Positions 14,675-58,380 of a stretch of 64,000 nt of DNA are shown one piece after another (positions within the stretch are counted from its first letter, which is position 1; each line of letters starts with the position of its first letter). Source of the DNA: Chlorops oryzae. Its lineage: Eukaryota; Arthropoda; Insecta; Diptera; Chloropidae. The stretch is taken from positions 62,191,812-62,255,811 of the forward strand of contig CM035807.1 in assembly GCA_020466095.1 (NCBI GenBank), read 5' to 3'. The position numbers and the translations under genes were made by a program. The notes under the pieces were generated by a model. The model worked only from the letters and a program-made list of their open reading frames with translations. It ran no database searches and was not told the origin of the DNA.

Positions 14675-14707
14675 GGGTCCATAAAACCAGAAATTACATC
14701 CTACTAA

Positions 14708-22037: not shown

Positions 22038-22042
22038 GATAA

Positions 22043-22606: not shown

Positions 22607-22676
22607 CTTGAGGGGTTGAGATAGTAAAGTAAACTGAATCAATCAAAGAAATAAAATTTCTTTTTATAAAATATTT

Positions 22677-24022: not shown

Positions 24023-24044
24023 CTTTTTATTTTTCGTCGAGTTT

Positions 24045-25083: not shown

Positions 25084-25206
25084 GACTTTGTTGTTGCTAC
25101 TGATAACGCTCTCAAAGAACTGTTTGCATTAATGGTTAAATTATTAATGAGATCATTTAAGTGTCCATGACATCTTTTATATTATAAATTTTCCTCAATT
25201 TAATTG

Positions 25207-25490: not shown

Positions 25491-25502
25491 GAACAGGTCT
25501 GC

Positions 25503-26393: not shown

Positions 26394-26506
26394 TTTACTC
26401 TTTTAACTTAGAAAAATGATACAAAAGCAATTCCTTTTATACTTTTTTGCTCAGAACGCTTTTGACCGTTGATTTGTGTGCTATACAAACAAACAAAAAT
26501 TTATAA

Positions 26507-27537: not shown

Positions 27538-27669
27538 AAATAAAATATCAATTTTAAATACATAAAAAGTTTCTTTTATTTAAAATTTGATAATATCTGA
27601 TAATTATAAACCATAACATATATTCCAATAATTCGATATCTTTAGCAATACTCATGAGTTCGTCGTCAT

Positions 27670-35900: not shown

Positions 35901-36963
35901 CGGCAAAGGCGTGAATCTGTACCGTGGATGTGACGTGGTCCTCAAATATGTGTCGAGGGAACTGCATATTGTTTATGTTTTCCAAGTTATTGCGAAATGT
36001 CATCCATCTTGTATACAGCTCTTCTGGCAAGGCTTCGTCCCATGATAGTTTGATTTGCCATAGTTCTTGAATGAAAATCTTTGCGAGGACAGTAACATGT
36101 GCTAAAATCCCTAAAGGATCGAATAGTCTTGCTAAATCTGAGCTCACTGTTCGTTTTGTTACACGTTTGCTTTGGCTCAGGCATACCTTTACAGAGAATT
36201 TATCACTTCTGGGAATCCAGGTCAAACCCAAGGTTTTCGTTTCTTGACAGTCATTGAAATTAATGTTGACCTCTTGATTTTCTCCTGCTACGTTTTGGAG
36301 TAACTGGGTGTGATTTCCTTGCCATTTTTGTAGATTGAGCCCGTGCTGTTTCAGGATGTGTGTGAGCTCCCGTTGAATTGTCAGCGCAATATTTAAGCTA
36401 TCAGCTCCACCAATTCCATCGTCCACGTAGAAGTTCTCAAGAAGAAACTTGGCCCCAAGAGGATATCGTGTCATGTTCTCCTTAGCTATCTTCTCCAAGC
36501 ACTTAGTTGCCAAATATGGTGCTGCTCGAGTTCCATAAGTTATCGTGTTGAGCTGGTAATATTTGATTGGGGTGGTTGAACTTTCCCTCCATATGATAAC
36601 GTGAAATTTTCGATCTTCTGGGTGGATGAACATTTGGCGATACATCTTCGTTACGTCGGTCGTAAACACGAATCGGGGTAATCGAAAGCGAAGTAGAATA
36701 GAAAAAAGCTCACTTTGGACTGTAGGGCCTGTATGCATTATGTCGTTTAAGGAGACTCCCGATGAAGCTTTTGCAGAGGCATCAAAAACAACTCGTAATT
36801 TTGTTGTTTCGCTTTGTGACCTTAGAATGCAGTGGTGAGGAATAAAATAATTTGGCTTGGTGATTGAGTCAAGAGGTATTTGGGTCATGTGCCCCAATGC
36901 TTCATATTCTTCCATGAAATTCTCGTACTGAGTTTTAATTTCTGGTGTCTTTTCTAGACGGCG
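32944..36963 (-). CDS. BEL-2 RT, RNase H, integrase and envelope N-terminus
   Basis: The long frame (start of the computed ORF lies in the Transib-like insert, so genuine sequence begins at 36963). RT carries VVFDASAKASSG and FYVDDGIGGAD, RNase H carries HAFADASERAFGAA and SKENPADILSRG, and integrase carries AGVDFCGPFW, YCDNATNFVGAK and GGLWEAAVKSAK. Env starts with signal-like FMALVVLMALPLVFG and has the furin-like RRHKRG before the fusion-peptide-like GNIAHSLFGVLD. All in one open frame over 1300 codons, which supports translation as a single polyprotein. Confidence 0.9.
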   Translation of the reverse strand, partial: RRLEKTPEIKTQYENFMEEYEALGHMTQIPLDSITKPNYFIPHHCILRSQSETTKLRVVFDASAKASSGVSLNDIMHTGPTVQSELFSILLRFRLPRFVFTTDVTKMYRQMFIHPEDRKFHVIIWRESSTTPIKYYQLNTITYGTRAAPYLATKCLEKIAKENMTRYPLGAKFLLENFYVDDGIGGADSLNIALTIQRELTHILKQHGLNLQKWQGNHTQLLQNVAGENQEVNINFNDCQETKTLGLTWIPRSDKFSVKVCLSQSKRVTKRTVSSDLARLFDPLGILAHVTVLAKIFIQELWQIKLSWDEALPEELYTRWMTFRNNLENINNMQFPRHIFEDHVTSTVQIHAFADASERAFGAAIYIRSVIKNGTVIVRLLCAKSRVALLKRQTLPRLELCAALVSAQLMTRIKKDLKFENAPAFLWTDSEIVLAWINSSSSSYHTFVANRVSQIQDLTIAEQWRHVPSKENPADILSRGLDPKKLLTCNMWLYGPMFLHGREEFWPQRKISCDETIMERKRETTVVAATTDSAMVIYKIDHKGSFLTLQRVIGYVLRFISNARKGQRKFKLALTVEELESAIVVIVRSMQESDFQEDLKHLAKHNEVSRSSPISNLCPFLDKNGIIRVGGQLESSTLSYEAKHPMLIPYNDPISRLLMQGIHEQNRHCGPQALLAYTRQRYWPVKGKSAARSIVQHCVQCTKAKPKLLSQLMGNLPPTRITPARPFINAGVDFCGPFWVHYKVRGKKPQKCYIAVFCCFATKAVHLELVSDLTTDAFIGALKRFISRRGFCQHLYCDNATNFVGAKNQLKELSETIFTSSASEVISRECTTKGITFHFIPPRAPHFGGLWEAAVKSAKHLLIRSVSTAFLTYEELDTVVIEIEAIMNSRSISPMSEDPNDLTALTPGHFLIGEPLNARIDPESTPAKISLLTRWKLVTHLKREFWKRWMREYLCELQYRHKWKTQGVNIKPGDMVILKEDNVAPLQWPMGRILKVHSGDDGIVRVADVKTASGTCRRPIDRLAPLPIKSEAPIEENSQLGEEEPEIATKKKRLAKNPSLFMALVVLMALPLVFGAQFQNTQFGTRLGIHFEGIGSVAISSTDWQLLIYYDLNRFWKDLQAFSNGTKALNELCQQIQQKSTCTNLATHFEHTESELMSESTLLSGRRHKRGAVDLVGNIAHSLFGVLDSEYAEQMAPTITKVKDNEAHLLNLLKNQTSIIDSTINILKTDQKAVTSKFDHLDNQITQIYNLVRNNTDDKYQEQIQRTFLSLCIQLNIIAANLQQTQSSILDILTNTHHGIISPLLLTPSQLQQEIQKIKTSLAGVAFPACKTRKFISTV

Positions 36964-38234
36964 CACACTGGGGTATTTGACATCGATTTTGGCGATTAGT
37001 TCAAAAAATGAAGTGTAAGGTATGCTTAAGTGTTTCATACCTAGCGAAAGAGAATAAAATGCTACATAATAAACTGAAAGAAAGAGTGGAAATCAATTTA
37101 CCGTTTACTTGGAATTCTCTTTCAAAGTTACAAAATTTTGCATTTTTGTATGTGCATCGGAAGAAACGCGGCTTTTATTTGCATTTCAAGCGCTTAATTT
37201 TTATACTCCAACTAAAACAAAAGGTTAAAGTGATAATGGAGCCCTCTTGTTCAGGTATTTTAACAACATAAAATTGATTCTGAATTTTAAAAAAAAGTTT
37301 ATTAATATTTTTTTTTAATTTTTGTTGTTGCGTATACAAAAAATACTCAGTTTTTGATATATATGTATTCATATAGTTGTGAGTTCCGTGGAGTTCGGCA
37401 AATTTGTTATTATTTTTAAAAAGATGAAATATCAGTGTTCCTATTCTGTAAAAAAAAAAGATGCGGCTAGACTGCGCACTTTCGAAATATATCAGTTTTT
37501 CTGCATTTCGTTAAAGCTGAAATAAGACAAAATTTTTAAGGAGAAAATGGAATATAGTAAATAGAATAATTAATAAAACTGAAAAAAAAAAAAATTTTAG
37601 CTGGTGCGTTTTTATGTTTATGTTTTGATCATTGTTTTTGTACACTACATTTTGGCAGGCGGAATTTTACGTGTAACAATTAGTTGTAACTGACAGTATG
37701 TTGTTTTAAGATTTCCCCGTTTATCACAGAGTGTCGATAAAGATTTTTCAGAGGACGAAGAAGAAGAAGAAGAATAAGGAGGAGGAGGAGGAGGAGGAGA
37801 AGAAGAAGAAGAAGAAGGAGAGGAAGAAGAAATTTTTTAAGAGCTTCGATTTTTAAGAAACCAAGTTTATTTTCTATCAAAATAAAGAAACACCGAAAAA
37901 AACTCAATTTAATTCAAAAGAGTTTATGCATTTTTATTTTCTCTGTTCTGCATGTAAATGAATTGACCTCCATTTTTATACTATTTTGCCCTTTTTTCAT
38001 GATATTAGGTCCAATTTATTTTATAAAAATAATTCCGTAAGTCAGAATTGTCGCAATACAATTTCCCACCAAAAATTTAGATAATTGAGTCCAGGGGGCG
38101 TGGCAGTTGGCGGATATTGTTCATTTTCGGTCCTAAGCATATACTCACTTGTGACAGCATGTGTGCCAAATTTTGGGCCCGTAGCTCATCCCGTTTAATT
38201 GATCTCCAAAATTTGTATCAAATACCCCACTGTG
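36964..38234. mobile_element. non-autonomous Transib-like DNA element 1, in BEL-2
   Basis: 1271 bp. Left tip cacactggggtatttga, right tip (reverse complement) cacagtggggtatttga, with weaker similarity for ~45 bp. The 5-bp GC-rich cggcg is duplicated (36959-36963 and 38235-38239). CACWGTG-type ends and 5-bp duplications are Transib hallmarks. The BEL-2 frame is restored when the element and one duplication are removed. No transposase is present. Contents: AT-rich DNA, a gaa/gga-rich tract (37757-37835) and a plus-strand ORF of 87 codons without recognisable features. Confidence 0.8.
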
Positions 38235-39328
38235 CGGCGTTCAAGAGAGAGAAACCTGTTGAGTGCTATCCCATGAGATTCTCCTAGCACCTCCGGGCTG
38301 TCACAAAATGGAATCCTTACGACGAATCTCCCACTTTTATCGATGTTGCAGGTTTGTGCAAAATGAGTTTCACATTGTCTGTCGGACAGCGATAGGAGTT
38401 TATCTGCTGTTTTAATGTCGTCTAGTTCCCACAATCGAGCAATATTTTCTTCTAGACTGGTTTCATCATCCCTGCATATACTACATGTGGCGGTTGACAA
38501 CTGGGTCCCATTAATCTTCCCTGATATGACCCAACCGAGCCGCGTGTTTTGTAATGTGGGCAACTCATCCGATAATTGTATTTGCCCAACTGCCAACAGC
38601 TGGTGATAAAACTCTGCTCCTAATAGAACGTCAATGTTGTTCGGCTGGTGAAATTCTGGGTCTGCCAGTGTTATGTTTTTAGGAATCGGCCAACTATCGA
38701 TGTTGATTAGCCTAGATGGTTGCGTGGATATGATATGTGGCAACACTGCTGCTTCAAGACGAGTTGTGAAATTGTTGATACGGGAGTGTAATGCAACGTT
38801 GACTCGATGCCTTAATTTTGTGTTGCTTGAGCCGATTCCGTTGATAGATATCGAAGCTGGTTTTGTTGAAATACCCATGCGTTTAACCAAACGTTCGGTG
38901 ACGAAATTGAGTTGAGAGCCCGAATCTAGAACTGCTCTGCACTGAATTTCCTTTCCATTTGCCTGGACCTTTATCATCGCCGTTCCAAGAATTACGTAGC
39001 TACTTGACTTTGATTGCTTAGCTGCGGTCAGAGATGCCGCCTCTTTGTCGTCTTGGGATGTCTCCGTAATTACTGATGACGTGCTTTCCGAGGCCTTAGT
39101 TGTTGTTGATGATGAAGTGCTTGTAGTTTGCTCCTGAAGATGTAACAGTGTATTGTGTTTCTTGTTGCATTTTGTACAGCTTCTTGACGTGCATTTTTTC
39201 GAGCCATGTCCTGGTTTTAAGCAGTTGAAACAGTATTTTTGCTGTTGCACAAACTGAAGTCGTGTTGCAGGGGGTGCCTGAAGGAAATTTTTGCAGGCAA
39301 ACAATGGGTGCTTTCCGTTTTTGCACAT
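38235..39328 (-). CDS. BEL-2 zinc knuckles and aspartic protease
   Basis: Starts at the first Met after a nonsense codon. CKNGKHPLFACK, CFNCLKPGHGSKKC and CTKCNKKHNTLLH are the Cys/His knuckles, AVLDSGSQLNFVTER is the protease active site, and LLGAEFYHQLL and LGWVISGK are conserved BEL protease-RT linker blocks. It ends at FLSLERR, where the Transib-like element enters. The last codon is split across the insertion and completed at 36958. Confidence 0.88.
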
Positions 39329-39346
39329 AGCGCAGGATCCATCAGG

Positions 39347-40630
39347 TTAACTGTTTGACGTGACTGAAGTACATACGTTTGCCTTCGGGTTTGATGATTT
39401 CTCCTTCGAACCTATAGCCTCCATGGATTGGAAATTTCTTTCCAAAAACGTGAGAAAATCCTTAATTTTTGGAATTTCTCGTGGTTTCAACAAAGATTGT
39501 TCATATCGGAGACGTGTCGCTTGATCTAATCGTTTCAGTAGTATATGTAGTAGCAGCGGGTCCCAAGTTGACGTGTTTATTTGAAGATGTTGCAGAGTTA
39601 ATAAGCATTCTAGAGTTCTATCGTGTAATGCCTTGAAGTTATCCTTTGCAGGACTACTTTGCGTGTCAACCAGCTCATGAATTAATTTCCCAACCAGCAT
39701 TCTTTTGTTATTGTATCGATCGGTCACCATTTCCCACGCAGCTTCGAAATTTTCTCCTGTGGCAGAAAAATGCTTTATAAGGTTTGCAGCTTCCCCCACC
39801 AAAAGTGTTTTTAGATACCAAATTTTTTGAACTCTTGATATCGGCTGATTTATTACAAGTGACGAAAATAAGTCGTAAAATTCTTGCCACTTTAGGTGAT
39901 TACCGTCAAATTTTGGTATCAGGATTTTTGGCATTGGAATTGAGTCCGATTGATTACTAGTCCGTATCGAGGTTGGTTGAGTTGATGAATTTCTTGTCAC
40001 AGTGTTGCAAATGTTTCTGATGATTTTTTCGAGAGCAATGAACCTATTCAGGTTGTATCCTTTTTCCTCTGGGTTAGCATGCAGTTCACTAACTTGGAAA
40101 TGAAGATTTTGAATGTTTTCCCATAATTTTGTTGCGACTTGAAGGTCTTGTTCGGAGAAATTGTCTTCTATCAATCGTTGAAGGGAATCCATCATTGAAA
40201 TTTGTCGGCGAACTAATTTGATAAGTTCTGCATCTTCTGCCTGTTGTCCTGCCATATTCGCTTGCTGGCCATCGTTCATGTTACTTGTGCGTTGAGTTGC
40301 TTCCGGAGGCTGCTTAGTATTGTTTGCTTGATTGACCTTAAGCATTGCTGATTTAAATATCTCCTGATATTCTTGGACGATATTCAGTATTGCACTGAGG
40401 TAATCGTTTTTGAAATACTCGTGGTATATTGGTCGATTTTCCAGTAGACGAATCTGGTTGTCTGTAGTATCAAATGTGGACCATTCGTCATTCAGTTTTT
40501 GAAGTCGCTCTTGAAAATACGTTGTAGTAGTCTTCCTTGTTGCTGAATCCTTTTTGAAGTTTTTAATTATTGCCTCTATGTTCGCTCCAGTTTGCTTCTG
40601 CTTCTCGACCAAGTCCTCAAATAGTCCCAT
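39347..40630 (-). CDS. BEL-2 gag
   Basis: 427 residues from MGLFEDLVEKQKQTGANIEA to a TAA at 39349-39347, placed just before the knuckles, where BEL-1 reads on. The nonsense codon is therefore probably a lesion. Blocks shared with BEL-1 include ILIPKFDGNHLKWQEFYDLF and WYLKTLLVGEAANLIKHF. Gag forms the particle; its C-terminal knuckles (next entry) bind RNA. Confidence 0.88.
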   Translation of the reverse strand: MGLFEDLVEKQKQTGANIEAIIKNFKKDSATRKTTTTYFQERLQKLNDEWSTFDTTDNQIRLLENRPIYHEYFKNDYLSAILNIVQEYQEIFKSAMLKVNQANNTKQPPEATQRTSNMNDGQQANMAGQQAEDAELIKLVRRQISMMDSLQRLIEDNFSEQDLQVATKLWENIQNLHFQVSELHANPEEKGYNLNRFIALEKIIRNICNTVTRNSSTQPTSIRTSNQSDSIPMPKILIPKFDGNHLKWQEFYDLFSSLVINQPISRVQKIWYLKTLLVGEAANLIKHFSATGENFEAAWEMVTDRYNNKRMLVGKLIHELVDTQSSPAKDNFKALHDRTLECLLTLQHLQINTSTWDPLLLHILLKRLDQATRLRYEQSLLKPREIPKIKDFLTFLERNFQSMEAIGSKEKSSNPKANVCTSVTSNS

Positions 40631-40736
40631 TTTGTTGTTGTTGTTTTACCTCCGTTAGTTGCTGATTGTTCTTGTACCTCCGTCCTTCCGTAGGTTGGTT
40701 GCGTTTCAAAATAAGGATACACCTTATTCTGTCGTT

Positions 40737-43143: not shown

Positions 43144-43415
43144 GTAACATTTTGCCACCCCTCCTTCTTTTATTCTTGTTAACATTATTATGTTGAAACA
43201 ATTCTGTTCCCATACCATACGCCAAAAATCATTTGTTGTGTTTCTTAATGGTCCCTGCATTGCTATGTATTATTTTGCATTTTTAACCGCACTCACTTAG
43301 TTGGCATGAATGTAATTAGAGCCGCTTCCATTGGCGTTTATGAGTTTTACTCTGCTGTGATCGAGGCACGGTACGTTAGCGTATCTGTTTTTCTTGTTTA
43401 TTTCCCCATTAAGTG
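43144..43415 (-). pseudogene. protein tyrosine phosphatase, N-terminal half, in Gypsy C
   Basis: Read on the minus strand: KKNRYANVPCLDHSRVKL, then NYIHAN, two stops, YIAMQGPLRNTTNDFWRMVW, and KEGGVAKCY at the Polinton tip. These are the classical PTP motifs in order, matching the Gypsy D gene (49195-50007) with many substitutions, so the two copies are not a recent duplication. The half with the catalytic Cys is lost beyond the Polinton. It follows the integrase as in Gypsy D. Confidence 0.82.
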
Positions 43416-44300
43416 ATCGTCTTACAACCAAACATTGTTCTTTTTTTAAGCCTTTCTAGACCAATCCTTTAACTGATTCTTCGATTTTCTGTGCCGAAAT
43501 TTTTATGTCTTTTTTTATTGCACATACTTGTTCGTGCTTCTCACGAAATTTTTTTATTAAATTTTTGTGAATAGTCTTTTCTTTACCCTTAATTCTTAAG
43601 CGTATGTTTGTTGACGTCGGATTGGAAATAACTTCATATGGTCCATCTTAAATGGGAGAAAATTAGTTTTTCTATTTTGGTTTTTCAAACCAAACCTTGT
43701 CTCCTACTATAAAGTGTCGTGTTTTTTAATTCTTGTCATAAATTTTTTTTAGCTTTTTCATTAGCAGATTTCTGATTTTCTCTTGGTAGCTCATAAGTTT
43801 GTTGGATTTGGTACTTTAAAATTTTACTAAAGTCATTCGCATTGTATAATAATGCAGGTTTTTGTTTTAGTTTGACGGGAATTTCGAAATCAAAACCGAA
43901 TAAGATTCTTCATGGTGTTTCCTTCGTGGATGAATGAACTGTATTGTTATGCACGTGCATCGCATGATTTAGCCATTCATCCCAGTTAGTTTCGTCTTCG
44001 TTAACCAAATTTCGAAGGTATTCTGCCAATGGGCGATGACTTCTTTCTAATGAGCCATTCGCTTGGGAGTGGTATGGAAACTTCTTTAAAAAGTATGGAT
44101 GTAAAATAAGTACCATTGTCGGTTACCAATACTTTAGGGATGTTGAATTTGGAAATTATTTCGTTGAAAAATGCTCCCGCCACAGATGCCTCAGCATCTG
44201 GAATATCCACGCAGATGAAATACTTAGAAAAGTCGTCTAAAAAGGTTAGGTTGTATTTATTTTCTCTTGACGAGATCGGGAGTGGACCAACTATGTCCAT
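43416..44300 (-). pseudogene. Gypsy C integrase, central and C-terminal part
   Basis: Starts at the Gypsy D insertion with DIVGPLPISSRENKYNL. Continues through DDFSKYF, VTDNGTYFTS (second catalytic Asp) and, after a frameshift, SQANGSLERSHRPLAEYL with the Glu. HNNTVHSSTK and FGFDFEIPVKLK follow. Towards 43416 the frame has many stops. The N-terminal half lies at 55881-56252, on the other side of Gypsy D. Confidence 0.85.
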
Positions 44301-45122
44301 TGTTGTGAGTCGCGATCTCACTTAGACTCACAAACATATTTTTCCCCCTCTTTCTACACGCTCGCAAACTAACTCAAAACAACAAAGTGCGAATGAAGCA
44401 TAAACAAAACGAAAGAAAGCTAAAAGCAAAAGGCAGTGACCTACATTTAGAAATTTCTACTTCAAGGTGATTCCATGCTACTCAAAAGCACTGTCCAGCG
44501 TAAATTGCTGACAAATGCAAACATGCAGTTCGGCCGCTTGCAACAACAACAACACCGGCACGGTATATGCCCGAATGACAAACATCAGCGCTGGCGCAGC
44601 GAATGCACAATTGCAATCCGATCGCTGGCAATAACAACAACAACACACGTCAAGAGTTTTTATGTAAAAGCAACAACAACTACAAAAGAAGAACTAAGAA
44701 CATCGGAATAGCTGTATGTAGTAACAATATGGCATGTTGGTGCAATTGCGGGGGAAGGTCGCGGTTAAGCTTATGCAATATGTTCAGGAAGAATCGACGA
44801 CGATCGCGGATTTTGGGAATAGTCAATATTGCAAGATCAGCAATATTGATCTATATGAACGGAACTTCGACGACTGGAAAGGGACTTCTGCACACGTACT
44901 CATCCACGGGCCACGACGGAGAAGTTAATAGAGTAATCACATTAAATAATAACGGCAAAACTTGTATTTAATTTGAATTAAATAAAAGGATAATTAATTG
45001 AAATCCTTTGTGTTCCTTTTGATTTGGTTAAAGGACCCCATTATATCCTACGGTGTACTTGCCTGACGTGCGTACCTACCCAAGTGCCACGGCGTTAGGT
45101 AATTGCACCGTAGGATATAACA
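44301..45122 (+). repeat. Gypsy D 5' LTR (U3 shared with the 3' LTR, remainder different)
   Basis: 44301 to about 44917 matches 55033-55650 with only about eight differences. From there to the likely end (...gatataaca, 45122) it is not alignable with the 3' LTR. The end is placed by the TG...CA rule and is uncertain. A 15-bp perfect inverted repeat (45042-45056 and 45107-45121) lies in the unmatched part. No primer-binding site follows; gag codons start at once. Confidence 0.7.
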
Positions 45123-45307
45123 CCACCGCTGTCACCAATCAGAACAATTTACAAACGAGAAATAGCGATCGCAATACTAATAACAATCGAAGCGCCCCAA
45201 CAATGAGTAAAACGATTCAATGTTTTAAATGCTCGCAACCGGGTCATATTGCAAGAATTTGTCCGAATAATCAGGGAAACCCCTCGCGGCCCGGTCTCGG
45301 CCATTAG
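45123..45307 (+). pseudogene. Gypsy D gag C-terminal remnant with CCHC knuckle
   Basis: About 60 codons directly after the LTR end: Asn-rich spacer, then CFKCSQPGHIARIC, a CX2CX4HX4C RNA-binding knuckle, and a stop at 45305-45307. The rest of gag is absent, so LTR and gag were joined by a deletion or recombination. Gag lies in the frame +1 to the downstream pol, consistent with -1 frameshifting in Gypsy elements. A Met at 45053 lies in the LTR and is not a natural start. Confidence 0.75.
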
Positions 45308-45351
45308 ACCGGAATGCCAGCAGCAAACAAGAGTCTCTGAGGCCAATTCAA

Positions 45352-46146
45352 ATGAGAAATTCAGAAAAACCAATATATAAAGACGAATTAAATGAGCTAG
45401 ATATAAATAAAATTTTTTTAGATGATGTTGACAAAAATACGATCAGTATAAATTTAAATTGTAATAAATCAGAGAAAAAAAGAATAATGAGTTCAAGAAT
45501 CTTAAGTAAAAAAGAACTCTCATTAAAGAAAAATCAAAAGCAAAAGCGAAGAGTGCATTTTAACGCGAATGTGAGTTTTCATTTTTACGAGAGTTCAATG
45601 CCAATTGTAAATACAGAATCAGAAAAAACGGTTGAAGATAAAAAGAGTAAAAACGAAGATAGAAGTCAATTTCGAAAATTATTTTTATCTTTTGTGTTAC
45701 CTTTTTTAGCAGCCATAAGCGAAAAATTTTCTATTTTGCGCAATCAAACTTGGGAATGGCTAAAAGAACGAAAGAAGCACCCCTGTAGGAACCTGATTCG
45801 AAATAATCCCAAATCCTTTAATACACAATGTTCAGGCTTAGTGTCAGACGACGCGTTTATAGTATTTCCTAATCGACAAGCTATTAACGAGGAGGTAACT
45901 CTGTTAGTGGACACTGGAGCTGACACTAGTTTAATTAAATGGGAAGCGTTAAAAAATGTAAATAACATTTATGAATCGGAAGCCAAGAGTTTAGTGGGAG
46001 CCTTCGGAGGCACCGTTAGGAGTAAAGGAATTATAGACATTGGTCATACAAATAATGAAGAGTTGAATTTTAAGTTTCACGTTTTACCAAAGGGTAGTAA
46101 AATTCCGGGAGACGGACTATTAGGCAGAGATGGGCTCTGGAATTAA
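45352..46146 (+). CDS. Gypsy D pol N-terminus with retropepsin
   Basis: 264 residues. The first ~150 are basic, without recognised domain, and include a hydrophobic stretch (LFLSFVLPFLAAIS) unusual for pol. The aspartic protease has LLVDTGADTSLIKW near 190, a flap-like GAFGGTVRSKG near 215 and GLLGRDGLWN at the end. The stop at 46144-46146 is a nonsense codon: the same frame goes on as SVIDTIDKEIKFF. Gypsy C has the matching LVDTGSDTSLIK. Confidence 0.82.
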   Translation: MRNSEKPIYKDELNELDINKIFLDDVDKNTISINLNCNKSEKKRIMSSRILSKKELSLKKNQKQKRRVHFNANVSFHFYESSMPIVNTESEKTVEDKKSKNEDRSQFRKLFLSFVLPFLAAISEKFSILRNQTWEWLKERKKHPCRNLIRNNPKSFNTQCSGLVSDDAFIVFPNRQAINEEVTLLVDTGADTSLIKWEALKNVNNIYESEAKSLVGAFGGTVRSKGIIDIGHTNNEELNFKFHVLPKGSKIPGDGLLGRDGLWN

Positions 46147-47022
46147 TCAGTAATAGATACCATAGATAAAGAAATTAAATTTTTCAAAAATGGCAAAGAA
46201 ATTGCTTCACTTCCTCTTGTTAGTTCCACGAATAAAAATAGGATTTGCACTATACAACGAGTCAAAATTCAGGCAAGGGAGGCGAGGGTAGTAGAAATAT
46301 GCTTAGCCAACTTTTCAGGAGAAATAGTTGTTCATAAAAAAGAAATTATGCCAAATGTTTTTAAGGGAGGCACAATTACAGAAATTTTAAGAGGAAAAGG
46401 CTATGTGCCTGTGTTAAACGCAAATAACACAGACATTCAAATAGATCCTTTGGAGTTAGAATATGATTGTGGCACAGATTTTGAGAATTTAGGGATTCCA
46501 AACATAAATCAGTTGCAAAACGAATATACGGAAAATAATCGTTTTGAACATTTGATGAACTCAGTAAATTTAGACAAAAATCTGAACAAAGATGAATTGC
46601 ATTCCATAAAAGAAATATTTAGAGATTATACCGATATATTCCTTTTGCAAGGAGATAATCTGTCATACAATACGGTATTAAATCATGAAATTCCTACCGA
46701 ACCGGGAAAAGCCCCAATTAATAGTAGACAATACAGGTTGCCGGAACATCATAAAGCAGAAATAAATACGCAGGTTAACAAAATGTTGACAGACAACATA
46801 ATTAAGCCAAGCAAATCGCCTTGGAATTAGCCCATAATTTTAGTTCCAAAAAGGACAGGAAAAGATGGCGAGAAAAAATGGAGATTAGTAGTTGATTTTC
46901 GAAAATTGAACGAAATTACACTTAAACAAGTTTTCCCTATTTCAAGAATAGATGAAATTCTTGACCAATTGGGATGTAGCCGTTATTTTTCCACTTTGGA
47001 TTTAGCTAGCGGCTATCATTAA
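46147..47022 (+). pseudogene. Gypsy D protease-RT linker and RT N-terminus
   Basis: Same frame as the protease. Contains RGKGYVPVLNANN, SRQYRLPEHH, a TAG at 46828-46830, then ILVPKRTGKDGEKKWRLVVD and the first RT Asp in STLDLASGYH, followed by TAA at 47020-47022 where Gln is expected (Gypsy C has GYYQVL). These two nonsense codons inactivate the enzyme as read. Confidence 0.82.
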
Positions 47023-49223
47023 GTACTGGTCGATGAACAGGATAGACAGAAAACGGCCTTCAGCACGGGCATGGGCCATTTCGAATTCATAAGAATGCCT
47101 TTCGGTCTAACGGGGGCACCAGCCACATTCCAAAGAATTATGATTTTTATTTTGACGGGTCTTCAGGGAATTGATTGCTTTGTGTACCTTGACGACATTG
47201 TTATCTACGCCAGGAATTTAGAAGAACACGATATTCGGTTAAGAAATGTTTTTGACGTCTTAAGGGAAAACAATCTGAAACTTCAAACAGAAAAATGCCA
47301 ATTCCTAAAGAGAGAAGTAGCTTACTTAGGGCACAAATGTTCAGAATCAGGAGTTTTACCTGATCCAGCGAAAGTTGAACCAGTTAGAAATATTAAAATA
47401 CCCAAAAACATCAAAGAATTGCAGTCCTTTCTCGGTTTGATCAACTATTATAGAAAGTTTATACCCGAGGCGGCTCAAATATCCTTGCCATTAACAAAAT
47501 TATTAAGAAAAGATGAGAAATTTATTTGGAATAAGAATTGCCAAGACGCAATGGATAAATTGAAAAATGCAGTTACAAGCCCCCCCATACTACAATATCC
47601 TGATTTCGAAAAGTTATTTATTCTTACAACAGACGCAAGCAACGAAGCGTTAGGTGCGGTATTGTCGCAAGGTGAGCCAGGACAGGATCTGCCAATATAC
47701 TATGCTAGTAGGGCACTTAGTGCAAGCGAGAGACGATATTCCACGATAGAAAAGGAGTTTTTGGCAATCGTGTGGGCAGTTAAAAATTTCAGAACATACC
47801 TTTTAGGCAAACACTTCAAAATTTATACCGACCACAAACCACTGAAAGGAATAGCAAACTTAAAAGAGCAAGACACGAGATTAGGACGTTTTAGATTAAA
47901 ACTTTTAGAATATGACTTCGAAATTCTTTATAAACCTGGGAAGAACAACCTTAACGCGGATGCATTAAGCAGGCTTCCGAGTTCAGACAGACCTATAGGA
48001 GTAGTTACCCGATCAATGTCACAAGACACTCACGACCAATTAGACGAATTACAAAACGTAATTGCGAATGACAATCTAAACGAAGATACAGCAGTGGTGC
48101 TAACTGATCCAATAGAAATACAAAACGTTATGAAAATTTTCCATGACACCCCAATAGGAGGCCACAAAGGTTTTGGAAAAACCTACTGCCGAATCAGAAA
48201 ACAATATAAATCGGAGGGCATGCAACGACAAAATAGAACCTACATTATAGCATGCGAACTTTGCCAGAAAAACAAAAGCTCTCGAGTAGACAAAATGCCT
48301 ATGTCAATAACAGACACACCCCATAGACCTTTCGATAAAGTTTTTATAGACATAGTCGGTCCACTTCCCATTTCGTCCAGGGAAAATAAATACATTCTTA
48401 CATTTTTAGATGACTTTTCAAAATATTTTGTATGTACAGCTATCCCAGATGCAGAAGCATCAACAGTAGCTAGAGCTTTTTTCAATGAAATCATTTCAAA
48501 ATTTAATATTCCAAAAACGCTAATAACAGACAATGGGACCAATTTTACATCAAAACTCTTCAATGAAGTTTGTAAAATTCTTGGAATAAAGAAATCACAA
48601 ACTTCACCCTACCACCCCCAAGCCAATGGTGCTCTCGAAAGGAGTCACCGACCTCTTGCGGAATTTCTCCGAAATTTTGTCAATGAGGATGGCACGAATT
48701 GGGATGAATGGCTGCATCATGCGATGCATGTACATAACAACACAGTACATACATCCACAAAACAAACACCATGCAGAACAATTTTCGGCTTTGATTTCGA
48801 AATTCCCATTAAATTAAAACATAAACCGAGTCCACTGTACAATTCAGACGATTACAGCAAAATATTAAAATTCCAAATCCAAAGAAGCCACGAAATAGTT
48901 AGAAATAATCAAAAGAAAGCAAAAGAGAATTCAAAAAATACTATGATAAGAAAACGAAGATAAGGAATTTTGCAGTGGGCGAGAAAGTTTGGATTAAAAA
49001 TCAGAACAGAATAAATAAATTTTCGGCTATTTGGGAAGGTCCTTATGAAGTCGTGTCCATTCCATCGACAAGTAATGTGCGAATGCGAATAAAAGGAAAA
49101 GAAAAGACGTTTCATAAGGATTTACTCAAACCTTTTGAAGATAAAATTGGCACAATCGAGACACTAAAAGAACAAGAATTAAACACTTTTTTAACAACAA
49201 AAAGTATCAGACGAATTCACTAA
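47023..49223 (+). CDS. Gypsy D reverse transcriptase, RNase H and integrase
   Basis: RT: RMPFGLTGAPATFQRI and the catalytic VYLDDIVIYA. RNase H: TTDASNEALGAVLSQG, IEKEFLAIVW and YTDHKPLKGI. Integrase: HDTPIGGHKGFGKTY..CELCQKN zinc region, then D,D,E in FIDIVGPLPIS, ITDNGTNFTS and NGALERSHRPL. At about 48931-48936 an A-run of six (seven expected) shifts the frame after KENSK. The C-terminus (VGEKVWIKNQNR, WEGPYEVVSI) continues in the other frame to 49223. The next gene, the phosphatase, overlaps the last nine codons in a third frame. Confidence 0.9.
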
Positions 49224-50007
49224 GCTGAACCAAAATATAGAAAATGGCAGAATAGACACATTTGCGAAAAATAAATCAAAAAATCGTTATTCAAATATAC
49301 CCTGTTTTGAACACAGTAGAGTAAAGCTAAGTTCATCCGAACAATCAAATTATATCCATGCGAATTTTGTTGATGGATTTGACAGAAAAAGAGAATACAT
49401 TGCCACTCAGGGCCCATTAATAAATACTGTAAATGACTTTTGGCAAATGGTGTGGTATCAAAATTGTTATAACATAGTTATGCTATCGGAGATACAGGAA
49501 GATGGAACAGAAAAATGTTTTCAATATTGGGGAAAAAATACAGACACGTGCGTTAAGTCCAACAGTTTCATTATAAAGACGTTGAAAATAAATAAAACCG
49601 ACTCTGGTATACAGAGCGAATTATTATTAAAAAATCTGGAAACCAGAGAAGTCAGAAAAATTCTCCACTGGCAATTTTTAAACTGGCCGGACAATGGCAC
49701 TCCGGAGCCAGCACTTTTACTTAAATTCTTGTTGGAAATACAAAATCACCAAAATTCTATAACAACAGAATATAGTTTGTCCAAAATAATAATACACTGC
49801 AGCGCCGGTATTGGCCGAACAGGTACTTTGATAGCAATTGATATTGCCTTAAGGACCCTAAATTCAGGATCCAAATTTAGATTACCCGACACAGTAAGAA
49901 TACTTCGCGAACAACGCGCGGGCATGATAACGTGCATGAAACAATATAAATTTGTGTATGACGTATTGAACTGCTACGTCAAACAACAGTTGAAGAACAA
50001 AATTTAA
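49195..50007 (+). CDS. protein tyrosine phosphatase captured by Gypsy D
   Basis: 271 codons open from 49195. Motifs of a classical PTP domain in order: KNRYSNIPC, NYIHANFVDGF, YIATQGPL, NDFWQMVW, the WPD loop (NWPDNGTPE, Asp codon at 49690), the P-loop HCSAGIGRTG (49795-49824; Cys 49798-49800 and Arg present) and the Q-loop KQYKFVYDVL. Length and residues fit an active enzyme that removes phosphate from tyrosine. No ATG precedes the domain: the first, at 49447, would delete its N-terminal third. So expression probably needs splicing; a 3' splice-site-like tatcag ends at 49210. Related phosphatases occur in baculoviruses and bracoviruses. Gypsy C carries a diverged copy. Confidence 0.9.
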   Translation, partial: QQKVSDEFTKLNQNIENGRIDTFAKNKSKNRYSNIPCFEHSRVKLSSSEQSNYIHANFVDGFDRKREYIATQGPLINTVNDFWQMVWYQNCYNIVMLSEIQEDGTEKCFQYWGKNTDTCVKSNSFIIKTLKINKTDSGIQSELLLKNLETREVRKILHWQFLNWPDNGTPEPALLLKFLLEIQNHQNSITTEYSLSKIIIHCSAGIGRTGTLIAIDIALRTLNSGSKFRLPDTVRILREQRAGMITCMKQYKFVYDVLNCYVKQQLKNKI

Positions 50008-50757: not shown

Positions 50758-50758
50758 T
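50753..50758 (-). terminator. AATAAA polyadenylation signal of the antisense gene
   Basis: Minus-strand aataaa begins at the last base of the stop codon of the 183-aa gene (stop 50760-50758). It would end an antisense transcript inside the element without affecting the sense genomic RNA. Confidence 0.55.
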
Positions 50759-51309
50759 TATACATCAGCCCACAACGCTGGGGGGCTGTCGTTAAATTTG
50801 CCATCCGGGGTTAAACCAGCAGATAAATTTTTTGTATTGCGGGGAATATCCCATTGTGAAGACACCTCCCGACTTGTCACAAAATATGACCGAACTCCGG
50901 GAGCAAACAAGTGTAACCGGTCTAAAAGGTCCGATAGCCGGTAGGAATCATGAGTGCGCTCACCCTCATTGTTTCGCACTGCATTAGCCTCTAGTTTTGT
51001 TCGCAATAGTCGTTGCGAAATATGGATCAAATTCTCCTCCCACGGGATGTCGAAATTGTACTCCTCACACCTCTCTGACAACGTAGTAATACGCCGCTGG
51101 TGTCCCCAGTCGCGCATTTTAATACCCTGGGCCTCCTCGTAGCGCAACCGCAAAACCATCTCCAGCACACTTTTCAATATTATGACCATCCTAGGCCATA
51201 CCTCGTCTGTCTGGCAAAATACAGGGAGGGTCCGTTTTAAGCAGACGTCCACCTGATAATTCTCCTCCAAATGATAATCCGCGCAAAACTTTTCTAAATA
51301 AAACTCCAT
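50758..51309 (-). CDS. antisense accessory gene inside Gypsy D, 183 aa, unknown family
   Basis: Uninterrupted minus-strand frame from ATG 51309 (MEFYLEKFCADYHLEENYQ) to TAA. The region is visibly richer in G and C than the flanking element DNA. The protein is charged and probably largely helical, with no signal peptide, membrane segment or catalytic motif that I recognise. Blocks such as PVFCQTDEVWPRMVIILKS and SYRLSDLLDRLHLFAPGVRS look like a folded domain. It has its own TATA-like box 34-45 bp upstream and AATAAA at its stop. A chance ORF is possible, but 183 codons with both signals is unlikely. Probably captured sequence; origin unknown. Confidence 0.6.
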   Translation of the reverse strand: MEFYLEKFCADYHLEENYQVDVCLKRTLPVFCQTDEVWPRMVIILKSVLEMVLRLRYEEAQGIKMRDWGHQRRITTLSERCEEYNFDIPWEENLIHISQRLLRTKLEANAVRNNEGERTHDSYRLSDLLDRLHLFAPGVRSYFVTSREVSSQWDIPRNTKNLSAGLTPDGKFNDSPPALWADV

Positions 51310-51342
51310 GTCGAATAAGTGTTATAAAACGGATTTCAGGAC

Positions 51343-51428: not shown

Positions 51429-52883
51429 TTACGATTCTGGGAATTGGCTGGAGCAATCCAAGGAGGGTTAGTGGTAACCCCAATCACACATCAGCGCGGA
51501 TTTATAGAGGTTCACATGCAGAAGACAGAAATAGTAAAAGAATCTTTCACAATTCTACATGTTATCCATCCGAAATAAATTTTAAAAATTATAAATTCAA
51601 TTGAATCACTCGTTATGTCTACAGAAGTACAAAATAGGGGATTTTTGGTAAGCGAGATAACAACAGTAAAATCAAAACTGAATTCAATAATGCCACCATT
51701 GAGAAAAAGAAGAGGACTTATTAACGCAATAGGTAGAGCGGGAAATTGGCTGTTCGGGATAATGGACGATCAAGACCGCCAAGAGATTGAAGAACACCTA
51801 AAGATTGCTGCAGAAAATAGTCATAATGCCATAGGAGGTCTTAACGAACAAATATCAATAAACAGCTATTTCAATGAAACTTTAGGGGAGCTAAAAAATG
51901 CAATCGAACAGGATAGAAAAATTTTTAACAGCATAACAAAGGGTAATGAGGATATTTTAAAACGTATGATATTTAATGAACAATTATATAAATTAAAAAA
52001 TATGGAAGAAAAATTAAATTTGATCCAGGACATCATAGCGGCAGCCAAACACGGCCTCATGCACCCCAGCATCCTTACAACCGAAGAAGTAGAGAGATTC
52101 AATTTAAACTTCTTAAAACTTAAATGGGTTAGAGTAGGAATAATGATATGTGTGGATGAAACATTGGTGATAGTGGTAAAAATTCCTACACGTCTAGAAG
52201 AAATAGAGGTTAATCTTATTATCCCGGTACCAAATAAGGACTTTTACGAAATTATGGCAGAAGACGAATTAGTAACCTCTATTAATAAAACAACATATTC
52301 ATACGATGAAAACGCGATTTTGAAGGAATTAAAGCGGAGTAGACACTGTTCGATTCAGAACACATGTAATTTCATTTTTAACAACAGGACATTCATTAAT
52401 TACATAGACGAAGGTACACTGATTGGGAAAAACGCAAAGGGAATGAAAATAGAAACTAATTGTGATAAAAGAAATCTCATGTTGAACAATAACGCCCTTA
52501 TTACTTTTTCCAATTGTAGTATAAAATTAGGGAATGAGGAATTTTCGAATGAAAAAACCATAATGGAAGACATTTACTTCTACCCGGAGGGCAAAATAAT
52601 CAAAGTACCCAACGATTCCATAATCTTTGAAGAAATAATTGTCAACAACTTCAAAAACAGACCATTTATTAAAGAAATAACACTACACAGAAATATATCC
52701 TACGGTATAAGCATATCATTATTGATTATGATCTGTGCAATAATACTGGGAATAATTATCCTATTTAAGAAAAAAGGAGTTATGGTTGAAATTAAACAAG
52801 CAATAGAAACAACGAACAGGAGAAATGATAGCTTACGGACCATAAGAAAACGACATGATGTACAAGAAAGCCAAAAATGTTAA
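51429..52883 (+). pseudogene. Gypsy D envelope (F-type fusion glycoprotein), interrupted
   Basis: The frame from 51429 (FWELAGAIQGGLVV, signal-like) has a stop at 51576-51578. From 51615 a 422-residue frame is open. A furin-like RKRRG is followed by a fusion-peptide-like INAIGRAGNWLFGIMDD, a coiled-coil region, a Cys-containing ectodomain and a membrane anchor (ISISLLIMICAIILGIIILF) near 368. The layout is that of baculovirus F and errantivirus Env proteins, which mediate membrane fusion. The break lies in the N-terminal region near HPK; a 1-nt loss explains it. Confidence 0.8.
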
Positions 52884-53443
52884 GAACCTCTGGCTCAGGG
52901 CATATTCTCAAATTTAATAAAAAAAAAAAAAAAAATTGAAAACTTCAAAAGCATTTAAGTCACTAATTTTGCAATGAAACTCGCACGAAACCTTCAAAAA
53001 AGAAAAAGGTTTTTTTTTTTCTCTATGTTCTACCTGTCGAATTATGTCGACTAAGGTAAAAACATTTCGTTGATTGATAACGGCTTAAGCAAAACGTGAA
53101 TGCATTTGAAAATTTTTTTTGAACAAGACAAAAGGTACAAGCACAATAGTGCTCAAGAAATAATAATAATAACTTTTGTATAATTCTAAAAACGGAACGA
53201 ATAAAGAAGAACTAAAATACCGAGATATTAATATTAGTAAGTATACGAAAAACATGGATACTTAAAAGCATTTGCCTACAAAAACACAAATGTACGCACA
53301 CGCTTAACCATACAATACCACACTAAGTTTCCTCCTAAGAATTTCGAAAAATTCCAATTTTAAGTGGTGAAAACAAATCCGAAATTATTCTTTTAAAAAA
53401 AAAAAAAAAACTAAAAGGCGAATTTGAATATCAACATTCAGTT
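52884..53443. other. AT-rich spacer after env
   Basis: No gene seen. A-runs at 52919-52935 and 53396-53411, and many short direct words. It might hold signals for the downstream gene, but nothing specific is recognisable. Confidence 0.5.
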
Positions 53444-54253
53444 TTGAATTCAACACTTGTTGACAAAAATCAAAGCCACGAAAATTTTTTAACCAAAATA
53501 AGCCATTTTTACACGATTAAAATAATGGACATTATGTGCTCTTATAAAATAGGCAATAGGATAAACATAATTCATACAGAAGAGTATGAAATACTAGTAA
53601 CAAATAAATGGTTGTCCGACGTTCACATCAACGTTTTTTTAAATTGGATCATTAACAACAATCATCTTACCCAAAATGTGCTAGCGTTCATTTGCATAAA
53701 CAACAATAAAATCGGCTAAAGAATCAAATAATGAATACATAGCCGGGTTACGACTAAAACCATTAATTAAAAACGTCTCTGTGAACAAAGTCGAAAACCT
53801 ATTATTCCCAATTTGCCATGTTAATCATTGGATGCTAGTTCTAATCAAACAAAATTAAATTTATGTTATGGATTCGCTACAGCCGCATGAGATAACGAAA
53901 ATAGAAGAAAATATTAAATTTTTCTTAAATAAATTACAGATTTTAGGTTTAACTAGTTTTAATAAAGATACAGAAATTTCTTACCCAAAATGTATACAAC
54001 AAGAGAATTTAATAGATTGTGGTATTTTTATTTTAAAATTTGCTAACGAATTATGCGAAGCAATTAAAAATAACAAAAACTAAAACCCGATATCACGAAA
54101 TTTAAGCCCAGAATCCATAAAATTAACAAGAAAATTCCTAGCAGAAGTTTTGAAAAAATGGGAAAAAGAAAATAAAGATATTACGAAAAAAGAAAGAGAA
54201 ACCCTATTTGAAATATTGAAATACATGAAAAAAGAAAAGAAAAAAGAGAAATG
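53444..54253 (+). pseudogene. Ulp1/SENP-like (C48) cysteine protease in Gypsy D
   Basis: Frame 1 (53444-53719) has NKWLSDVHINVFLNWI, the substrate-channel motif of Ulp1 enzymes. After a 1-nt shift at ~53705 the next frame has CHVNHWMLVLIK (catalytic His), a TAA, then YVMDSLQPHE (catalytic Asp) and QQENLIDCGIFILKF (oxyanion Gln and catalytic Cys). After another TAA at ~54081 a Lys/Glu-rich tail continues in frame to TGA 54251-54253. All catalytic residues are present, in order, so the gene was functional before three small lesions. Homologues process SUMO-like modifiers. It is placed between env and the 3' LTR. Confidence 0.75.
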
Positions 54254-55032: not shown

Positions 55033-55876
55033 TGTTGTGAGTCGCGATCTCTCTTAGACTCACAAACATATTTTTCCTCCTCTTTCTACACGCTCGCAAA
55101 CTAACTCAAAACAACATAGTGCGAATGAAGCATAAACAAAACGAAAGAAAGCTAAAAGCAAAAGGCAGTGACCTACATTTAGGAATTTCTACTTCAAGGT
55201 GATTCCATGCTACTCAAAAGCACTGTCCAGCGTAAATTGCTGACAAATGCAAACATGCAGTTCGGCCGCTTGCAACAACAACAACACCGGCACCGTATAT
55301 GCCCGAATGACAAACATCAGCGCTGGCGCAGCGAATGCACAATTGCAATCCGATCGCTGGCAATAACAACAACAACACACGTCAAGAGTTTTTATGTAAA
55401 AGCAACAACAACTACAAAAGAAGAACTAAGAACATCGGAATAGCTGTATGTAGTAACAATATGGCATGTTGGTGCAATTGCGGGGGAAGGTCGCGGTTAA
55501 GCTTATGCAATATGTTCAGGAAGAATCGACGACGATCGCGGATTTTGGGAATAGTCAATATTGCAAGATCAGCAATATTGATCTATATAAACGGAACTTC
55601 GACGACTGGAAAGGGACTTTTGCACACGTACTCATCCACGGGCCACGACGTACAAGTAAATAGTCAAGTAATAGGGATATTTATATTTGGAAGTATAGGA
55701 TTCATTTTGTTAAATAAAGGATTAAAACCTATTTGTTGGTGTCTTTTATTTGATAAAGGAAATACGGGGACTTATATACGCTCGACATTGTCTGAGCGCT
55801 TGGTACCCTACGTTGTAATTTAGTGACATTTGTGCGCTCGACACAGTTTGAGCGCTGTGCACACTATACTACAACA
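55033..55876 (+). repeat. Gypsy D 3' LTR
   Basis: 844 bp, TG...CA bounded, followed by ccat. The first ~620 bp equal the 5' LTR. The last ~220 bp are unrelated to it and contain a 'gcgctcgaca...gtttgagcgc' hairpin. Confidence 0.88.
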
Positions 55877-58380
55877 CCATGTAAACCTTGTCGAATGGTC
55901 GATGGGATATGTCCGTGATAGTCAAAGGAATTTTGTCAATTTTTTAGCTTTTATTTTTTTGGCAGAATTTACATGTATCTATATATGCTTTAATTTGGCG
56001 TTGCATGCCCTCGCATTTGTATTGACTCCGTATTCTTAAATACGTCTTAAAGAAACCTTTATAACCTGAAATTGGGGTGTCATGAAATATCTTTATATCC
56101 TTTTGAATTTCGCCCTGATCTGAAAGAAAAACAGGTGTGTCTTCTCCTTTCTCGTTTTGAACTTTTTTATTTTGTGGGCTAATTTCTGCTTCCTCTAAAG
56201 TTGTTGTTTGTGATCTAGTCACATTATTTATTTTATTTTTTAAGGGCGTCATTCTGCTTAAGGCGTCTGCATTTAAATTGTTCTTCCCTGGCTTATAACA
56301 TATGTCAAAATCATATTCTAAAAGCTTCAGTCTAAAATCTTGTATCCTGGTCCTTCAAATTAACTATTCCTTTTAATGGTTTGTGGTCTGTGAAGATTTT
56401 GAAATAATTTCCTAAAAGATATGTCCTAAAATTCTTGACTGCCCAAACTATTGCTTAAAATTCTTTTTCGTTGAGTAACGTCTTTCTGTGGCACTAAGCG
56501 CTCTACTAGCGTAATATATTGGTAGATCTTGTCCTGGCTCACCTTGAGATAAGACGGCTCCTAAAGCTTCATTTCTAGCACCTGTGGTTAAACTTAATGT
56601 ATTCTCAAAATCTGGGTATTGGAGGATGGGAGGACTTGTGACTGCGTGTTTTAATTGTTCCATTGCCTTTTGGCAATCTATAGTCCATTCAAATTTTATT
56701 TCTTTTCTCAATAATTTTGTCAAGGGCAGTGAGATTTTTGCAGCATCTGGAATGAACTTTCTATGATAGTTGATTTAACCCAGAAATGCGTGTAACTGTT
56801 TAGTATTTTTTGGTGCCTCTATGTCTTTCACACATTTTACCATTTCCGCTTGACTCCTATTTTAGAACATTTGTGGCCTAAATATATCACTTCTCTTTGT
56901 AAGAAATTGCATTTTTCTGTTTGCAATTTTAGATTGTTTTTTCTCAATACTTCGAGTACTCTTCTTAATCGCATCTCGTGTTCATTTAAATATGTGGCAT
57001 AGATGATGATGTCATCGAGATATACAAAACAGTCAATTCCTTTTAAGCCCGTTAAGATACTGTTAATTATGCGCTGAAAGGTCGCAGGTGCCGCTGTGAG
57101 CCCGAACGGCATCCTTGAAAATTCAAAATGTCCTAAATCTGTGCTAAATGCTGTTTTTTCCTTATCATTGTCGTCCAATAGCACTTGGTAGTAGCCGCTA
57201 GCCAAGTCTAGTGTTAAAAAATAACGGCTGTAACATAGTTGGTCTAGGATCACGTCAATCCGCGGGATTGGAAAAACTTGTTTGATATCATTTAATTTTC
57301 TAATGTCTACTACCAGTCTCCATTTTTTTTCACCATCTTTTCCTGATTTTTTAGGGACTTAGATTATTGGAAAATTCCATGGAGATTTGCTTTGTGAGAT
57401 GATGCCCTCCTCAAACATTTAATTCACTTGGGAGTTTATTTCTTTCTTTTGGTGTTCCGGCAGTCTGTACTGCCCAGAAATAATGGGAGGGTGGTCTACT
57501 GCTGTTGGTATTTAGTGCTTCAGGACTGTAGTGTATGAAAGTTTATCTCCTTGCAAATGGAATACATCTCAGTAATCCTTAAAAATGCTTTGTATTGAAT
57601 TCAACTCATTTTTATTAAGACTACTGTCTAAAGTAACCGTTTTTACCAAAAGGTCATAGCGAATATCTTCATTCCTGCATTTATTCAACTGATTTACATT
57701 TGGGATGTTTAATTTTTCGAAATCTTCTTCTCGATCAAATTCTAATTCAATATCGTTGCTTAATCTGATGGCACTTCTATTCGTATTTAATATTGGTACA
57801 TAACCTTTTCCATAAATGATTCTCGTTAGCGCGCTTCCTACGAAAACATTTGGTTTTATCTCATTTTTATTCAATATAACATTTTCTTCGAGTCCTTTTG
57901 CGCATATTGCTATTATTCTCGCTTCCCTGGCTTTGATTGTGACTGCCTCAGCATTACAAATCCTTTCACTTGGATAAGAAGCTAACAGGGGTAGTGACAT
58001 AATCCGTCCCCCAAGATCAAAATTTAATTCCTTATTGATACTATCTATTATTGATCGATTCCATAGCTCATCACTACCTAAAAGTCCATCTGCCGGAATT
58101 CTGCTTCCTTCGGGCAACACCTGAAGTTTGAATTTTAATTCCGGATAATCAGAATGGGAAATTTGCGTAGTTCCTGCACTATTTATGTGACCCCTGAATG
58201 CTGTTACGAGCCGGCTTGTTTCAAAACATTGAAATTCGTCATGCCCTTTAGTGCTTCTATTTTAATTAAACTTGTATCAGAGCCAGTGTCCACTAATAAA
58301 GTGACTTTGTTGGTTTTAGTTTGTCCGCATGGGATACCGCGTCCTCCGATACTGCCTCTACGTTCTCCTTCTTTTTAAGC
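55877..58380 (-). pseudogene. Gypsy C pol (protease, RT, RNase H, integrase N-terminus)
   Basis: Minus-strand pieces in order: protease with LVDTGSDTSLIK near 58290, linker (58120-57569; ADGLLGSDELWN and YGKGYVPILNTN), RT 57253-56837 (TLDLASGYYQVL, RMPFGLTAAPATFQRI, VYLDDIIIYA), RNase H 56723-56448 (ALGAVLSQGEPGQDLPIYYA), and integrase N-terminus 56252-55881 (HDTPISGYKGFFKTY, CKFCQKNK). Many stops and frameshifts. The frame ends at DKVYM, and the next residues are at 44300. Confidence 0.88.

Follow-up and report, generated by a model that had tools for sequence, protein, structure and literature searches.

The 64,000-nucleotide stretch of the Chlorops oryzae genome analysed here (hereafter the window; contig CM035807.1, positions 62,191,812 to 62,255,811, of the 442 Mb assembly GCA_020466095.1) contains an env-bearing Ty3/Gypsy element with long terminal repeats (LTRs), in which a protein tyrosine phosphatase (PTP) domain follows the integrase of Pol. 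The domain lies at 49195-50007 on the forward strand, in a 270-codon open frame whose residues 26-258 match positions 1-232 of the 234-position profile PF00102 (E = 8.5e-75). The frame contains the WPD, HCSAGIGRTG, KNRY and QGP motifs, and with the whole domain, the Cys-x5-Arg loop and the general-acid Asp it qualifies as a classical PTP, for which phosphotyrosine hydrolysis is a possible, predicted activity. An AlphaFold2 model based on a 44-sequence alignment reached a mean predicted local distance difference test score (pLDDT) of 93.2 and a predicted template modelling (TM) score of 0.92. The best four solved-structure matches of this model were all human PTPN9/MEG2 (TM by query 0.92-0.94, 36% identity), and by sequence the best two matches were likewise named PTPN9-like (41 and 45% identity). 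The viral Foldseek matches with a name included bracovirus and ichnovirus PTPs (30-31% identity), while the top viral match, F4ZGM5 (38% identity), was listed without one.

Two details of the enzyme differ from the original prediction, which was made from the sequence before this analysis. A Q-loop had been claimed, and its second glutamine is indeed there, but the residue that we take to be equivalent to Gln262 of PTP1B is a threonine. Gln262 of PTP1B serves the second step of catalysis. The idea that the enzyme might act on RNA 5' phosphates was not borne out: the domain is of the classical phosphotyrosine type with a KNRY loop, the dual-specificity profile (DSPc, PF00782) reached 23.8 bits against a cut-off of 33.5, and an RNA 5' phosphatase was rejected on family type. 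The baculovirus PTP is a dual-specificity enzyme of the RNA phosphatase type.

Structure of the carrier element

The element and the features assigned to it are as follows.

44297..44300, no strand: target site duplication CCAT, left copy, matching the right copy
44301..44931, + strand: 5' LTR, portion matching the 3' LTR (98.4% identity over 631 bp)
45032..45304, + strand: gag remnant with CCHC zinc knuckle (PF00098, 3e-7)
45271..48963, + strand: pol, a single frame for protease, reverse transcriptase (RT), RNase H and the zinc-binding and core domains of integrase (Pfam)
48909..49223, + strand: integrase C-terminal (GPY/F) segment, here in a frame other than that of the core; GPY/F named from reading
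49195..50007, + strand: intact PTP domain in the same frame as the pol core (PF00102, AlphaFold2 model)
50758..51321, - strand: antisense open frame whose first ATG is at 51309; copies of the window subfamily conserve it
51579..52883, + strand: env, Baculo_F-related (PF12259, 2.6e-7)
53339..54083, + strand: C48 (Ulp1-type) cysteine protease region with stops inside (PF02902, 2.8e-4 for 53859-54080; wider extent from reading)
55033..55876, + strand: 3' LTR, TGTTG...CAACA, from LTR comparison
55877..55880, no strand: target site duplication CCAT, right copy, matching the left copy

LTRs with a short target duplication, the order protease-RT-RNase H-integrase and a Baculo_F-related env identify an env-bearing Ty3/Gypsy element, and together with the near-whole PF00102 match they confirm the claim of a complete classical PTP in a Gypsy/errantivirus-like element. 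The errantivirus-like assignment was made with a Pol set without a named reference errantivirus (gypsy, ZAM, 17.6), "transposon 17.6" and "297" occurring only as source names of matches. As had also been predicted, nonsense codons interrupt the surrounding pol: frames within 45271-48963 end at 46146, 46830, 47022 and 48963, and a frame change comes in addition. The window copy is therefore broken, because of these in-frame stops and of an integrase C-terminal segment in another frame, while its PTP is intact. The two LTRs (44301-45140 and 55033-55876) match over 631 bp and then differ. The 5' end of the element is therefore mosaic or rearranged, and both the terminal part of its 5' LTR and most of gag have been lost or rearranged.

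The original prediction had placed the PTP between integrase and env. The position is correct, but the PTP is better read as a C-terminal domain of Pol than as a gene of its own. The coordinates 49195-50007 delimit a stop-to-stop frame with neither an intron nor an ATG ahead of the domain, and a stand-alone gene was rejected because of this missing ATG and because the PTP keeps the frame of the integrase in the outer copy described below and in the Pol proteins P0248 and P0249. A programmed -1 frameshift into the PTP was also rejected, since the phase of the PTP, counted from the segment ahead of it, is +1.

The nested older relative

The window element interrupts the integrase of an older, minus-strand relative: the sequence on its right corresponds to the inner integrase as far as 48345, and the sequence on its left takes over at 48346. 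Three parts of this outer copy were recognised.

55881..58261, - strand: outer relative, pol as far as the zinc-binding domain of integrase (flank comparison)
43510..44300, - strand: outer relative, integrase core and C-terminal segment (flank comparison)
43144..43392, - strand: outer relative, PTP fragment (PF00102, 2.6e-14; 59% identity to the inner PTP, 49/83 aligned positions)

Nonsense codons apart, the outer PTP fragment is in frame with its own integrase C-terminus. Over 81 codons, the inner and outer PTPs differ at a saturated proportion of synonymous sites (pS 0.88) and at a proportion of nonsynonymous sites (pN) of 0.25, giving a pN/pS of 0.28 (95% interval 0.19-0.41). The corresponding values over 610 codons of RT, RNase H and integrase are pS 0.80 and pN 0.185. 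Because synonymous sites are saturated while pN stays low between the nested copies, the PTP is, as judged from this codon comparison, a long-standing resident of the lineage that has evolved under constraint.

Copies across the genome

A genome search with P0001 found at least 146 PTP places (106 without and 40 with stops inside the match) and one with the fly MEG2-like protein P0017 at least 38 further places, making at least 184 in total, or 180 once merged; the counts are lower bounds because only the best candidates were scored (142 of 553 for P0001 and 99 of 586 for P0017). The 100 places examined in detail were the best-scoring of the 128 with a match of at least 640 nt (18 of the 146 matches were shorter and left out), and the integrase check accordingly covers 100 of the 146 P0001 places and none of the 38 P0017 places. 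An integrase lay directly upstream on the same strand in all 100, in the same frame as the PTP in 79, and with an open frame from integrase into PTP in 50. The N-terminal Sec14 (CRAL-TRIO) domain of PTPN9/MEG2 was not found at any of these 100 places, the integrase standing there instead. At 30 of the 184 places the open frame was 1500 residues or longer and the match free of stops, the length being exactly 1618 residues at eight of them; this suggests recent activity. The host has its own MEG2-type gene, in pieces, at C3:26634782-26635621; these pieces are 84, 65 and 84% identical to P0017, compared to 39-48% for the element PTPs among the listed matches.

Active-site conservation and selection

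The catalytic Cys was present at 100 of the 100 examined places. An open PTP match of sufficient length was found at 81 of them, and only these 81 entered the clusters, trees and estimates of omega. Within this set all 81 retained Cys, 80 retained Arg (the remaining one having a gap) and 77 retained Asp; the KNRY loop had its Tyr in 69 and a Phe instead in nine. Of the 81 element PTPs examined, 78 have a residue at the position equivalent to Gln262, a glutamine in 5; of the 120 host-search proteins examined (P0006 included), 115 have one, a glutamine in 110. Threonine at this position is common to P0248, P0249 and the window copy.

Within subfamilies, median PTP omega was 0.24, 0.24, 0.28, 0.29, 0.40 and 0.66 in the six with usable pairs (open copies only; a seventh was without a usable pair and two were too small). 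At the level of codon comparison, this shows purifying selection on the PTP in most subfamilies tested. Between subfamilies, identity was 77-91% for integrase versus 43-66% for the PTP, and mean pN was 0.08 and 0.32, respectively.

Pol-PTP fusions outside the genome and phylogeny

P0248 and P0249, two Pol proteins that come from other sources, are intact and carry a C-terminal PTP (Pfam). They were found among the best 120 of 5851 matches in a search with P0122, the closest Pol relative; the search with the window Pol itself covered proteins of up to 1130 residues, with full-length fusions outside that range, and its matches with an organism name were all from insects. P0006, which by reading begins within the last residues of Pol, is a third candidate. 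An extension of at least 60 residues past the integrase end was seen in 3 of 214 Pol relatives, namely P0248, P0249 and one Pol-Env protein. Scans of IMG/VR with Pol and with the PTP found no relative in that database, from which close relatives of the genome may be left out.

The PTP tree that the original prediction had proposed comprised 26 element rows and 55 of the 120 host-search matches, picked by name and length, with P0006 among the 55. In it the element PTPs stood apart from the MEG2 proteins of flies and other insects. The 24 own-genome rows, from nine subfamilies, formed one clade (support 100/98), and together with P0248, P0249, P0006 and a Cydia protein they formed a set (95/94) beside PTPN9. 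The PTPN9-like group of 29 rows held together at 99/90, with the element PTPs beside it and not inside. On this phylogeny, the element PTPs, probably of PTPN9/MEG2-like ancestry, are far from the host's own MEG2.

An integrase tree of 22 rows from eight of the nine subfamilies and 13 Pol relatives also united the own-genome PTP carriers in one clade (99/98), and these carriers, P0248, P0249 and two proteins with no PTP in their frame in a set (97/95). Subfamilies L009 and L043 differ in synonymous divergence between the two domains (0.36 over 216 codons of integrase, 0.84 over 255 codons of PTP), and PTP or integrase may have been exchanged between elements of these subfamilies. In the approximately unbiased (AU) test, the PTP data did not reject the integrase grouping (p-AU 0.368) and the integrase data rejected the PTP grouping (p-AU 0.003), both groupings having been named after the trees were seen.

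Comparison with known systems

The element shares with errantiviruses and other env-bearing Ty3/Gypsy elements (Metaviridae) its LTRs, the 4-bp duplication, the order protease-RT-RNase H-integrase and an env related to baculovirus F, but its lineage has a PTP after the integrase, whereas 211 of 214 Pol relatives stop less than 60 residues past it. Similar to chromoviruses, which have a host-type domain on the integrase end according to the available parts of PMC2774666 and PMC12440569, it carries such a domain; unlike theirs, this is a phosphotyrosine-signalling enzyme and not a chromatin reader, and no chromodomain was found after the integrase of the window element, where the PTP stands instead. 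PTPN9/PTP-MEG2 has the nearest catalytic domain by sequence, fold and tree, but the element PTPs form a clade of their own, integrase replaces the Sec14 part, and the Gln262 equivalent is mostly gone. The PTPs of polydnaviruses (bracoviruses and ichnoviruses) are likewise classical PTPs captured by insect-associated viruses, but they are not part of a Pol polyprotein; they were compared by Foldseek matches, their sequences being outside the PTP tree. Polydnavirus PTPs are free-standing genes on wasp DNA circles.

Captured enzymes are also reported in PMC9289625, for an orchid Gypsy element with an m6A demethylase, and in PMC5408684, for bdelloid LTR elements with a lipase or exonuclease ORF3; a captured enzyme is what they have in common with the PTP element, while the enzymes and their place differ. 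The word "phosphatase" occurs in the first of these articles a single time, as part of the title of a reference; the main text of the second does without it, and it is likewise absent from the available main text of PMC12992720, PMC12440569, PMC2774666 and PMC6338049. A review of lateral transfer in Lepidoptera and a paper on baculovirus transcriptomics did not, in the parts available, deal with a PTP-bearing LTR element. In the open-licence PubMed Central literature (best matches only for broader queries), we found no PTP in an LTR element, which agrees, as far as that literature was covered, with the earlier statement that no LTR retroelement with a PTP had been described.

Proposed role and alternative explanations

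We consider it likely that these copies represent an insect Ty3/Gypsy lineage with a PTPN9/MEG2-like domain on its integrase, a part of Pol kept by selection that would be delivered in the particle and would act on a host phosphotyrosine target. The Pol-PTP architecture, its spread through the genome, the kept active-site residues and the purifying selection are the observed part of this reading. Delivery with Pol is suggested by the place of the domain, because at the end of Pol it would travel with the Pol products, and a host phosphotyrosine target because the active site is kept in a PTP that changes fast relative to a slow integrase.

Retrovirus-like elements pack Pol products into particles. 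Made with Gag-Pol, the PTP domain would enter the particle at the copy number of RT and integrase, whether released by the protease or left attached to integrase. The domain would then dephosphorylate host proteins at tyrosine, in the entered cell or in the producing germ line, and this might blunt a response that would block particle uptake, trafficking, silencing or integration. The fast divergence of the PTP beside a slow integrase would suggest the tracking of changing host targets, and loss of the Gln262 equivalent a slower second step, such that substrate binding may matter besides turnover.

Several results weigh against this reading. The loss of the Gln262 equivalent could mean reduced activity. 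Subfamily L095 had the median PTP omega of 0.66, with single pairs up to 1.08, and the median omega of integrase (0.15-0.30) was below that of the PTP in all five subfamilies measured for both; because of this difference, the faster change of the PTP could partly come from weaker constraint. The Pol-PTP set alone (own-genome rows with P0248, P0249 and P0006) was recovered at just 84/29, and P0247 and P0250, which belong to the same integrase clade, show no PTP in their open frame. Finally, a role for the PTP within the element itself, with integrase or Gag as its target, would fit much of the data.

Such a role is the first alternative explanation: the PTP would act on the element's own proteins by preventing a build-up of phosphotyrosine on integrase or Gag, or would be a docking module of integrase that directs integration, like the chromodomain of chromoviruses. 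The domain sits at the integrase C-terminus in 100 of 100 examined places, the place of the chromodomain in the available parts of PMC2774666. However, a substrate among the element's own proteins would be expected to change slowly, like integrase, yet PTP identity between subfamilies is far below that of integrase (43-66% against 77-91%), and Cys, Arg and Asp are kept beyond the needs of pure docking. We regard this role as rather unlikely.

A second possibility extends the host-directed role to the C48 protease. A C48 place was found on the same strand within 6 kb downstream of at least 23 of the 180 merged PTP places, 21 of them at 2.0-4.4 kb, compared to none in the controls (upstream 0, opposite strand 0); the count is a lower bound, with 150 of 513 candidates scored. 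The other 127 C48 places are not accounted for by PTP elements, and one is a likely host gene. We suggest only tentatively that the Pol-borne PTP, entering the cell in the particle, and the C48 (SUMO or ubiquitin-like) protease encoded behind env form a modification-erasing set that would disarm host silencing or signalling, the PTP diverging fast and being exchanged between co-resident elements as in an arms race.

Concerning the origin, at least two separate captures of a PTPN9-like domain by related elements would account for the low support of the Pol-PTP set and for P0247 and P0250, but we hold this to be unlikely: the window copy, P0248 and P0249 share the place after integrase and the threonine at the Gln262 equivalent, and a single clade of PTP carriers is not rejected by the integrase data (p-AU 0.124). 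A single capture, probably with one fusion to the integrase C-terminus, is the simplest reading of the trees. That the PTP is a passenger free of selection could be argued from the broken pol of the window copy and the stops inside the match at 40 of 146 P0001 places; it is nevertheless very unlikely given the inner/outer pN/pS of 0.28 (0.19-0.41), median omega of 0.24-0.40 in five of six subfamilies (open copies only) and a catalytic Cys in 100 of 100 examined places. A processed host gene landed once in the window copy, the outcome that the original prediction had set against itself, would fit a frame without ATG or intron but is close to impossible and was rejected, with at least 184 places, integrase in front of 100 of 100, a PTP fragment in the outer element at saturated divergence, fusions outside this genome, and the host MEG2 exons elsewhere (84, 65 and 84% to P0017 versus 39-48%).

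Should the domain be active, a retrovirus-like element would deliver a tyrosine phosphatase along with its Pol, a strategy not found in the open-licence literature searched. Genomic parasites with a PTP may interfere with host cell signalling, and the many copies, with frames of more than 1500 residues and nine subfamilies, offer a natural series for finding the targeted host pathway and for asking whether retroelements adapt to host signalling like viruses. Accessory domains on Gypsy Pol extend beyond chromodomains.

Additional observations

Between PTP and env, the antisense frame at 50758-51321 on the minus strand runs for 187 codons at a GC content of 0.47, compared to 0.34-0.35 around it. 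It was found in eight of eight copies (the window and the seven next best PTP matches) and was open in five. Read in its own frame it had a median omega of 0.21; the frame sharing its codon positions gave 0.37, and four others gave 1.4-2.2. The genome contains 31 matching pieces, and 16 of them have a P0001 PTP place upstream on the opposite strand, at a distance of 752-757 nt in six cases. By these comparisons the frame resembles a conserved antisense gene belonging to the window subfamily; antisense open reading frames have been reported in plant elements (PMC7264820). A single-sequence model of the antisense protein was uninformative (pLDDT 38), and its matches to TAL effectors in the PDB were taken as chance, no stretch passing alone.

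Three related Gypsy Pol proteins (P0257, P0280 and P0258) have other domains between RNase H and integrase: ubiquitin hydrolase (UCH), macro domain and G-patch. Judged by these domain matches, the interval between RNase H and integrase is a second slot for captured domains.

Elsewhere in the window, 11129-17901 and 32058-40645 (minus strand) hold two elements about 71-73% identical, by reading BEL/Pao-like with env-like proteins. Frames of a Polinton/Maverick-like integrase and DNA polymerase, also recognised by reading, lie at 2977-6398 and 22000-30725; the two copies, oppositely oriented, share 99% identity over 1.8 kb.

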